Of a DNA stretch of 64,000 nt, positions 2,705 to 11,685 are shown piece after piece. The notes under the pieces are model-generated. The model searched no databases, had not been told where the DNA came from, and saw only the letters and a program-made list of their open reading frames with translations. The position numbers and the translations under genes are program-made. Each line of letters starts with the position of its first letter. Within the stretch, counting starts at the first letter, position 1. This DNA comes from Lineus longissimus (Eukaryota > Nemertea > Pilidiophora > Heteronemertea > Lineidae), in the NCBI RefSeq assembly GCF_910592395.1, contig NC_088316.1, positions 10,478,001 to 10,542,000 of the forward strand, given 5' to 3'.

Positions 2705-3477
2705 GTCGCTCCAGCGCATTGGTAGGTCGCGCCCCATTGGCTGATTTTCAATTTTCAAGAATTAATTTCAATTTTAAGGGGGTTCGGGGGGCCTTTCCCC
2801 CCAACACATGCCTAAAAATGAAATGGCCAAGGGCCATTGTGCTCACCGTATAGATATTTGGTGGCTAGGAATTCATCCTGGTTAAGAAACATGCTACATG
2901 TATAGTATATAGGTCAAACCAAAGTCGGTATGACATGTGATGTATCGTTGCTTGGAGTACCTACCATAAAAATATCATCAAAAACAAGTCACTAATAAAC
3001 GAGATATTGCACTTTTTACCTATTTTAGTTTTGGCCTCCTGGTGGCCAAGTTGAGTACCAGATCAGATTGAAATTCGGTGTCCGAGGTTACGGGTCATTC
3101 TACTGAAAAGGTATAAAGTGATGTCACAGCACTGGACACATCATAAATATCCCAATTGTGTGCCATGCATTCAAATTGACCGTCTTTTTAATGATATTAC
3201 TATAATGTTCAGTAATTCCAATGCTTAGGTTTTGTCTGAATATCACAACTTTTAGAAGAACCCCTTTTAAAAATGCGAACTGGGTAAAATTATTGTGTCA
3301 CAATTCCAAATACCCATGTTTCCCCATCTCCCAATATCTATATGATAAGATAAGCTTTAACCTTTTGCTTTTAAAATGTGAAATAGTACCAACAGATCTC
3401 ACATACAGCTCCATGTTCGATTATCTACCACACTTTTATAAAATAATGCCATGATAGCACCTGTCACTGGGTTTCTT

Positions 3478-7865: not shown

Positions 7866-9117
7866 AAATTAATCCAGGGTTTGATACATTCCTTAGGGAT
7901 TCCAGAAATATTGTAATATGTGAGCTCCACTACTGTTGAAAAAAAACTATATTTTTGTAATGTTAACTTTTGATAATAAAAGTTTTTTATTTGGAAATAC
8001 CATGTTTCTCATTTTTTGGCTCTGCTGGTTTTATACCTTTTCAGTAGAATGACCCTTACATGATGTAGCGAGTCATTGACGTAGGGAGTCATGTGTACCA
8101 AATTTCAAGTTCATAGCTTTAGTGGTTAAGAAACGTGCCATAGTTTACACTCAAACGACCAATTTACGCCATTTGACCTCTGACCTTGAAAAGCAGGTCA
8201 AATCAAAAACTTATATGATATGTGATGTATCCTTGCTAGGAGAACCTACCATAAAAATGTTATTGAGAACGAATCACTAATAACCGAGAACACTTTCTAG
8301 GTTTTCACTTTTGGCCCCCTGATGGCCAAGTTGAGAATCAGACCGGACTGAAATTCAGGGTCAGAGGCCAGCTGACCTAGGGGGTCCTTTGTACAAAGTC
8401 TCAAGTTCATAGCCTTAGGGGTTAACAAACGTGCCACAGTTATGCTCAAATGGCCAATTTAGGCCATTTGACCTCTGTGACCTTGACAAGTACGTCAAAT
8501 CTAAAACCCGTACCATATGTGATGTATCCTTGTTAAGAGTATCCATCATAAAAATTTTACCAAAATCTAATCAGTAATAAGCGAGATATGGCACTATTCA
8601 ATTTTTTTGTTTTGGCCCCCTGGTGGCCAAGTTAAGTATCAGACCGGACCGAAAATCAGTGTCACAGGTCATCTGACCTAGGGGGTCATGTGTACCAAGT
8701 TTAAAGTTCATAGCTTTAGTGGTTAAGAAACGTGCAATAGTTACACTCAAACGGCCAATTCACACCATTTGACCTCTGTGACCTTGAAAATAAGGTTAAA
8801 ATCAAAAACCTGTAGGATATGTGATGTATCCTTGTTCTGAGTACCTACCATAAAAATAAAATTGAAAACACGTCACTATTAAAGGTCATATATCAAGGTT
8901 TGAAAACATGCTTGATACTCATGAAATATGTTGAGGGTTAAAAAAACAAGATCCCAGACATTAAAAAAATTCTAATAATAAAGTCATTATTTAGTTATTT
9001 CAATTTTCAATTTGAAACTATTTGAATTTCCCACCACACACAACTTTAGATTAGTTCCACATGTGGCCGCTAGGGATTTTTTGATGACGTAGGTCAGGTC
9101 AGTCAGAACAAAGCAAG

Positions 9118-10164
9118 ATGGCTTCCGCATACAGTTCAGAGAGTGAGAGCAGTGAATTTGAGGATGTTTTGGTCGATACAGAAGGATATTTAAACGTTGA
9201 GCCATACATGTTCGAGCCATTGATATCACTAGATCATAATGAGAGTGATCATTCGGACGAAAGTGATGAGGAAGTGGAGGATGAACGCCCTGAACGTGCA
9301 GGCAACAGAAAATGGCAAGTTTTGTTTACATTCTTACTCTGTTCTCTATGCACACAGCACTACATCATGACATGCATCCACTACTACTATACACAATTGG
9401 ACTTTATCTGATGCTCTGGCACTTCTTGGATGGCTTTGTATTGGTTCAATGGTTGTATGTATTTGAACAGTCTCTGAAGGACATTTGCCATCTGCCATGT
9501 CATGGACTCGGCCTCATCATCACTGAGACTGAGGGAAGCCAAGGAGGGCAACTGGCAACTGGTCTAGTGTTGATCATCATTTTTTGTAAATATGTAAACG
9601 TTTATCACTTCAGGTGTGACTGTGGAAACTGCACAGCTCAAATCACTGGAACAGAGTCGATGTGCTGCAGTGACTATTCCCCAGTTCTGGCCAAGAAGGA
9701 AAGTTATGAGCCAGATGGAGTTGCCTGCATAACTCTGCATCCCGGATTCGCAAGCAACTGCCTTGACCGATATGTCCTGGAAAGTGCCATGTATGAATTT
9801 ATCCAAGATCAAGGGCCAATAGGAAATGATCAGCCAATGCACAAGTAAGTTGAAATAAGTAAAATAACAGAAACTTGTACATGTACACTTCCTATTTATT
9901 TACAAAACAGAAACAACTGCCTTCAGCACAAAGGATTCATGACCATACTACATTGTATGCATTATGTTTCATCTGAACTCAAATTTTCTCTCAAACTGTC
10001 TTTTCAGGTTATGGAGATACCTTGCATACCGCAGATTTGTGCGCTGGTGCTGGCAACGTTTGGGCAAAAAGCAAAGACTTCCTCTTCCAGTCTGTGCTCG
10101 TGACAAGATTCGCTCTACCTGGCCCTCAGAGGAGTACACTGGCTTTCGTTATCCAAAGAGTTGA
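9118..10164 (+). CDS. P2X7 receptor C-terminal ('ballast') zinc-domain protein, 3 exons
   Basis: Three exons, 9118-9314, 9614-9844 and 10008-10164, encode 194 residues with consistent phases. Exon 1 is a Ser/Glu/Asp-rich acidic leader (ESESSEFED ... DHSDESDEE). Exons 2-3 carry the cysteine signature of the cytosolic ballast domain of vertebrate P2X7: WCDCGNC, the CC pair, CITLHPGF, CLDRYVLE, YRRFVRWCW, a Cys after GKKQRLPLPV, and EYTGFR. In P2X7 this domain is cytosolic and binds zinc and guanine nucleotide. Here no P2X channel part or membrane segment is present, so this is a free-standing domain protein. Intron 1 uses a GC donor (GCAAGT) and ends in TTCAG; intron 2 is GT-AG. The ATG has a good context (AAGATGG). 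The gene lies wholly inside the TTAA element, 235 bp from its left end. Its function in the element is unknown. Confidence 0.88.
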
Positions 10165-10500
10165 GCGTCCGATTAAATCGAGTCTTCCGGCTATCCACGA
10201 CCTCAAGTTTGGTTTGACGTTTCGTGTATTTCGTACAGACTGGCTTGGGTGTAGACTTGATGCGATCTTCTCTATTGGTCAATGCAGTGCTGTACGAGGG
10301 CATTTTCTCTCGAAGTCTCAATACCTCATTCAGTAGAAGTTGGATGTATTCTGAAAAGGAACGAATATTTTGATTTTTTTTGAACAATAAATATTTTGTA
10401 TTTATAGGATGTCCTGTTTGTTTTTGGTGACACAAGATCATCTCCATGAAATACCTCTGGAAATGGAAATGGTGTTCACAGTCAAGTGGAACCTCTCTAA

Positions 10501-10639
10501 AGGGACCATCTCAAAATTGACTGATGCCAAAATAGAAGAACAGTGTTAGTCTCTCTGTGAACACTGAGCACCTAGAAAACTCCCCCCAGACAAACACTGT
10601 TCCTCTTTTTTTGCATCAGTAAATTTTGAGATGGTCCCT
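10501..10639. repeat. Hairpin-forming inverted repeat, ~46-bp arms
   Basis: AGGGACCATCTCAAAATTGA... at 10501-10546 pairs with ...AAATTTTGAGATGGTCCCT at 10593-10639, with a loop of about 46 bp and few mismatches. Short flanking TAA-like words suggest a tiny foldback MITE inserted downstream of the P2X7-domain gene. A transcribed hairpin is a second possibility. No coding content. Confidence 0.7.
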
Positions 10640-11685
10640 AAGGACACCCATGGGACTGACAAGTGCTCTCCTTAATAGAGTACACTCCCACCGCAGTGGT
10701 ATGTCCCGCCCCTGGTTTCATATACCGTGCCAACCACTGCTAGGCGAGAGTCTTTATCAGCGGCTAGGAAGACGACTGCAACAACACTACTTTGGCACTC
10801 TGCCAAGCAATCGGATGTTGTCACCCTTTCTATATATGGCCATTTTCAAGGAGCATCCTTAACCTACATGTATGATATAGAAGTACTTTTTTGAAAAGGT
10901 TCCTACCATAAGTCACTGGTACTTTCACTTCCCTTGCCACAGGTTCACCCGTTTGCACTTTCGAATCCACAGCTTCCTCCTCTCTTGTTCAACTGGCTTT
11001 GGAAATTCATGAAAATGGGTCCCATCCGTCATTCGATTGTTCTTTGTGCTAGCCTTGACACAATTCGGAGCCACACAATACACCATAGTGAATGAAACAC
11101 ATTACTTCCAGGTGTGCATAATTAATTAAGGCCCTCCTGCTTTTATGATTGCATGACATGTACAGATGACCTTATCTACATCACAACTTTTGCTGAACCC
11201 GCCGCCTGGCTCTAACAAGCCAGTTGCTAGCCTGATCAGGTAATCAAGTTGTCAAACACATAATTGGCTATATCTTCAAAATGGATGGAGCTAATTGCAT
11301 TTGGTTTTCTGTATTGTATAAAGTGTTAGGTACACTTTTGAAATCGTCTTACAGCAGAAAATGGCAAAAAACCTTGATATATGACCTTTAAGCGAGATAT
11401 TGCACTTTTTACTTTTTTTAGTTTTGGCCCCCTGGTGGCCAAGTTGAGAATCAGATCAGACCGAAATTCGGTGTCAGAGGTTATATTATGTAGGAAGTCA
11501 TGTGTACCAAATTTCAAGTTCATAGCTTTATTGGTAAAGAAACGTGCCACAGTTACGCTCAAATGGCCAATTTACGCTATTTGACCTCTGTGACCTTGAC
11601 AAGTAGGTCAAATCAAAAACCCGTATCATATGTGATGTATCCTTGCTAAGAGTATCTACCATAAAATTTTTACCAAAAACTAATC

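Follow-up and report, generated by a model that had tools for sequence, protein, structure and literature searches.

A 64,000-nucleotide stretch of the genome of the nemertean Lineus longissimus (contig NC_088316.1, positions 10,478,001 to 10,542,000, hereafter the window) harbors at window positions 8883..11387 a whole non-autonomous Kolobok element of 2505 bp with an intact gene for a free-standing P2X7 ballast domain. We conclude, with a probability of roughly 90%, that this element derives from a Kol0-type Kolobok transposon by loss of the transposase, that the gene it retains is most likely KolX, and that it would be moved only by the transposase of others. Rather than captured cargo, the ballast gene most likely represents KolX of the Kol0 lineage, a second gene belonging to the element itself, because the same gene lies in the same place and faces a transposase gene in families with other ends, and because its co-location with opposite-strand transposases extends genome-wide. 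The initial annotation of the window had called the gene cargo, a label that does not fit this arrangement, and had seen in it the best candidate for an undescribed system, a claim anticipated by Kojima & Bao 2022 (PMC9587614), who describe KolX, report the ballast fold for this protein of the Kol0 Kolobok elements and derive P2X7 from a fusion with KolX, the source of its tail. The central idea of that annotation, namely that mobile elements spread the domain and offered a route to P2X7, is right in substance and, given that report, already in print.

Structure of the element

The element is delimited, exactly as first annotated, by perfect 19-bp inverted ends with TTAA on both sides. The left terminal inverted repeat (TIR; 8883..8901, plus strand) begins with AG (5'-RR), the right one (11369..11387, minus strand) finishes with CT (YY-3'), the two match each other perfectly (AGGTCATATATCAAGGTTT), and the TTAA target-site duplications occupy 8879..8882 and 11388..11391. 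The empty site, obtained by joining the flanks across one TTAA, gave three alignments within the window that span the join with 82-87% identity, two of them overlapping in neighbouring tandem units and the third at 2928-3090; because the joined flanks align through the join elsewhere in the window, the insertion is clean, and the claimed restoration of the interrupted repeat is borne out. The host sequence is a tandem array of ~301 bp units, found on the left at window positions 8077-8857 (2.6 copies, 80% matches) and continuing on the right at 11392-11680.

The gene consists of three plus-strand exons, of which exon 1 (9118..9314) encodes an acidic N-terminus with a PYMFEP motif and precedes a first intron with a GC donor, exon 2 (9614..9844) provides the CxCxxC, CC and CIT zinc/ballast residues, and exon 3 (10008..10164) encodes RYLAYRRFVRW... 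and closes with a stop codon at 10162-10164. Together they form a coding sequence of 585 nt without internal stops for 194 amino acids (MASAYSS...YPKS), and an annotated L. longissimus protein of the same length is 99% identical. The sole Pfam match of the product is P2RX7_C (PF20478; E 4.4e-13), and no P2X channel domain is fused to it. Its sequence also matches P2X7 chains of the PDB (best 3.8e-5) and its structure model adopts the P2X7 ballast fold, the fold that marks the second protein of Kol0 elements. Both the integrity of the gene and its relation to the P2X7 zinc domain had been correctly recognized.

The initial annotation overlooked a minus-strand THAP-domain exon inside the right end of the element (10950..11086; PF05485, E 5.4e-7), which represents the start of a transposase gene and the N-terminal part of its THAP domain. 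At a sharp deletion junction (10949..10950) this exon is fused to the 3' end of the transposase gene, of which the last ~20 codons remain (10890..10949, minus strand; GEPVAREVKVPVTYGRNLFK), identical to those of a longer copy, L029. Because the THAP start and the 20 C-terminal residues flank this junction, both ends of the transposase gene were kept and its middle was deleted. Several longer copies carry 0.1-1.4 kb of additional sequence at the junction, and the L029 remnant aligns with the C-termini of the transposases of two larger elements, L063 and L065, described below. A complete transposase was recognized in none of the longer copies of the window family; L029, its longest gene-bearing copy, was considered as the autonomous parent and rejected, as only end pieces of the transposase could be recognized in it. 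The element displays the TTAA duplication, the 5'-RR/YY-3' termini (AG...CT; rule in PMC9587614) and, as a remnant, the THAP domain of Kolobok transposons, for which an H2CH zinc finger has been named (PMC6004289). An imperfect palindrome of 139 bp (10501..10639), with arms ending in AGGGACCATCTCAAAATT, is shared with longer family copies and is possibly an older nested miniature inverted-repeat transposable element.

Copies of the element in the genome

A genome DNA search, in which 40 of 1122 candidates were scored so that all counts are lower bounds, detected at least five end-to-end copies of the element including the window's own (96-100% identity) and many partial copies besides. The terminus pattern, allowing one mismatch, occurs 544 times genome-wide (271+273) and its reversed control not at all. 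All three exons were found in each of the 16 gene-bearing copies examined (the window's included); using a 16-bp end pattern that tolerated up to 2-3 mismatches, we saw two ends in 14 and one end in two. One side of copy L003 shows TTGA in place of TTAA. The initial annotation had named copies that never carry the gene, or intact genes all unlinked to these ends, as the observations that would count against it, and these 16 copies bear out neither.

Among 100 listed exact termini, 28 pairs lie within 12 kb; 11 enclose one of the 16 KolX-bearing matches listed, and 17 show no such match in this lower-bound search, 15 of these spanning 1.0-1.6 kb. Exactly paired window-family ends at C10:6681362-6683843 and C14:1513091-1515962 (2.5 and 2.9 kb), equally devoid of a match in the copy search, may enclose KolX or other contents.

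Related elements pair the gene with a transposase on the opposite strand

Searching the L. longissimus genome for P2RX7_C, with 150 of 187 candidates scored, yielded at least 96 places, a count that does not include the split-exon members of the window family, and many of the 30 best loci fall in dispersed multi-copy families. Two larger TTAA elements, L063 and L065, could be read end to end (5.9 and 6.8 kb) and are bounded by TIRs (AGTCCACAATTCAAGC and AGACCTATGATTAT, respectively) that both differ from the ends of the window element. Each carries KolX on one strand and THAP and DDE pieces on the opposite strand, with THAP domain matches at E 2e-14 in L063 and 1.1e-12 in L065. Inspection by eye revealed a DDE core with the C/DxxH motif (TTDGH..DVWH in L063 and TTDGH..DIWH in L065), a Kolobok trait seen in these relatives only, the region being deleted in the window copy. 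The separate L063 and L065 pieces matched no DDE family in Pfam; PF20700 was matched at 5.6e-9 in a protein matching L046-L048/L052.

This convergent layout recurs throughout the genome. Querying with a single transposase exon of L063 (160 matches, of which the 150 listed were used), we found a transposase match on the opposite strand within 5 kb downstream of 39 of the 96 KolX places, upstream on the opposite strand of one, and on the same strand of none, against an average of 0.21 and a maximum of 3 in 500 runs with jittered positions. With 120 related transposases as queries and 1.5 kb flanks, 24 of the 30 best loci had an opposite-strand match and none a same-strand match; the best match was downstream in 23 of the 24 and upstream in L040. 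Six loci gave weak matches (L033, L034, L039, L049, L056 and L059; E 1e-5 to 1e-9), and with the same queries and flanks no match was detected near L035, L036, L037, L038, L044 and L057. Upstream homology edges coincided with TTAA in 11 of 22 scorable pairs belonging to four families (background 4.4%), and in five families with differing ends TTAA followed by AG stands at the terminus upstream of KolX.

Two groups of loci deserve separate description. L033-L039 and L056 (C8, C14, C1, C10, C13, C19) have weak or absent transposase matches nearby; L033-L039, the best-scoring P2RX7_C families (87-103 bits), also differ at their N-terminus, for example DLTNDEVWNFVQ..NDQPELL in L033. These families may possess a diverged transposase or may be host genes. 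Conversely, seven loci within C14:2459456-8046100 are 75-94% identical to most of the L063 transposase query, and an eighth (C14:5885612) is 66% identical; no listed P2RX7_C place lies within 5 kb of them, and they are either transposase copies devoid of KolX or neighbors of a KolX too diverged for detection.

Constraint between families and a conserved N-terminal motif

Substitutions in KolX were compared between families (20 pairs altogether). Among families with transposase partners, four pairs showed saturated silent sites (proportion of silent differences, pS, 0.79-0.86) and a proportion of non-silent differences (pN) of 0.19-0.26. The ratio of non-silent to silent substitution rates (dN/dS) could be counted for L037 against L036, L038 and L039, where it was 0.08-0.09, and was 0.65 between L036 and L038. 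L058 and L062 gave 2.0 on 9 changes and other very close pairs 0.13-0.39. By these substitution patterns, the KolX protein is constrained between families; it probably matters to element lineages during mobility and would be a passenger in copies lacking the transposase.

A second conserved feature lies ahead of the zinc motif. Of 291 homologues found, 120 were listed and 72 of these had at least 40 residues in this region; redundancy being kept in, 58 of the 72 contain [YF]x[FY]EP, mostly as PYxFEP, against a mean of 0.135 and a maximum of 2 for shuffled N-termini. The motif is present in nemerteans, molluscs, echinoderms, cnidarians, lancelets and fish. A search of the paper library for the motif strings and PTHR36981 returned no description of the strings; apart from Rump et al., matched by PTHR36981, it yielded one unrelated clinical paper. 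Our guess is that PYxFEP is a docking site.

Alternative explanations

Several observations weigh against a KolX gene belonging to a Kolobok lineage and constrained within it. With the single transposase query, 57 of the 96 P2RX7_C places have no downstream opposite-strand match within 5 kb; these may be deletion derivatives, diverged copies or host genes. The other 11 of the 22 upstream homology edges lie off TTAA, and in a scan within ±1.5 kb of the 30 best P2RX7_C loci no TTAA/TIR pair exceeded the control 4-mers, an outcome to be expected if the elements are longer than that range, which is itself no proof. No complete parent element bounded by the ends of the window family turned up, L029 also being devoid of most of the transposase. 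Regarding constraint, the three countable dN/dS pairs are non-independent, L036, L038 and L039 being mutually close, and the transposase matches of their families are weak or absent; very close pairs carry too few changes for a verdict, some with 0 silent and 3-4 non-silent and one with 1 and 8. Lastly, coding variants within the window family number 29 against 39.6 expected from noncoding rates.

This last deficit would suit the alternative that survives best, though we hold it to be unlikely: that elements with KolX alone have been selected as one half of a split system and keep the gene because they supply KolX, in trans or in cis, to their own family or to other Kolobok families. It would also agree with the KolX frame remaining open in 13 of the 16 copies despite the lost transposase and with the constraint between families. 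However, the young age of the copies is enough to account for the open frames, and the deficit is not significant against the noncoding counts (29/585 versus 52/815, Fisher p 0.30). Over the 585 bases of the 16 copies, two more divergent partial copies (L018 and L019) being left out, we counted 18 amino-acid changes, 3 stops and 8 silent changes, so that protein changes are not depleted (21/29 or 72% non-silent, against 76% predicted from the noncoding spectrum; p 0.66). Purifying selection within the window family was therefore not clearly found in this low-power test, and weak constraint may be present.

It is more improbable still that a TTAA element once picked up a host P2X7-like gene by transduplication and amplified it later. 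Such a chance capture would account for window-family copies without a whole transposase and for the 17 of 28 paired ends without a KolX match in the lower-bound search, but it was already disfavored by the TTAA and AG found upstream of the same gene in five families with differing ends, by KolX facing the transposase in L063 and L065, both read end to end, and by the genome-wide opposite-strand co-location. Least probable of all is a domesticated host gene lying by chance in a transposon remnant, since the annotation of a near-identical copy as a gene (LOC135499789) has to be set against 16 near-identical copies with the same ends at dispersed sites, undepleted protein changes and stops in three copies.

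Proposed mechanism and comparison with known systems

A transposase-deleted Kol0-type element with its own KolX gene suggests the following scheme. In relatives with the full layout two genes converge, KolX running inward from one end and the THAP/DDE transposase from the opposite end. The transposase is predicted to recognize the inverted ends through its THAP part and to use the DDE core for cutting and for reinsertion at TTAA. Because its protein changes slowly between families, we predict for KolX the role of an accessory subunit that is required through many rounds of transposition. An internal deletion in the window family took out the transposase between the THAP start and the last ~20 codons; the founder retained KolX, present copies carry it as a probable passenger, and the element would move only with transposase from other copies. 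A bolder extension, which we put forward tentatively and regard as more doubtful than not, is that Kolobok transposition cannot do without KolX as its second subunit, built of a zinc ballast head and an acidic tail whose PYxFEP motif docks a partner, that the cytoplasmic anchor of the inflammatory receptor P2X7 is this subunit repurposed, and that transposase-less elements are subunit stores ready for new fusions.

What is new here is the scale and layout of the system in a nemertean, the between-family constraint on KolX, the conserved N-terminal PYxFEP motif and the lack of clear KolX constraint in transposase-less copies; Lineus appears once in the main text of PMC9587614, in the KolobokP table. 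Most likely the domain works as part of a transposon family and is not cargo, which brings genome-scale support from a nemertean to the published idea that the tail of a drug-target receptor came from a jumping gene, and the constraint and the motif offer two handles on KolX function.

The window element shares with the published Kol0 Kolobok the TTAA duplications, the 5'-RR/YY-3' ends and a transposase accompanied by a second protein with the ballast fold, but the window copy lacks the middle of the transposase. Unlike the ballast of the P2X7 receptor (PDB 6u9v, 8trb, 9e3o), its protein is free, 194 amino acids long and channel-less, with an acidic N-terminus. The free-standing ZCD/NANOR-like proteins of Rump et al. 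2020 (PMC7016195) contain the same domain and are short, with the domain C-terminal, as in KolX. That study describes the domain from animals at large, each species having fewer than 10 genes and large families being absent, in contrast to the at least 96 places in the L. longissimus genome; it includes one tick protein with a THAP domain (printed TAHP), and no word starting with 'transpos' occurs in its main text. Finally, piggyBac also targets TTAA but differs from the window element, which ends in AG...CT and whose relatives encode a transposase with a THAP domain and a PF20700-type core.
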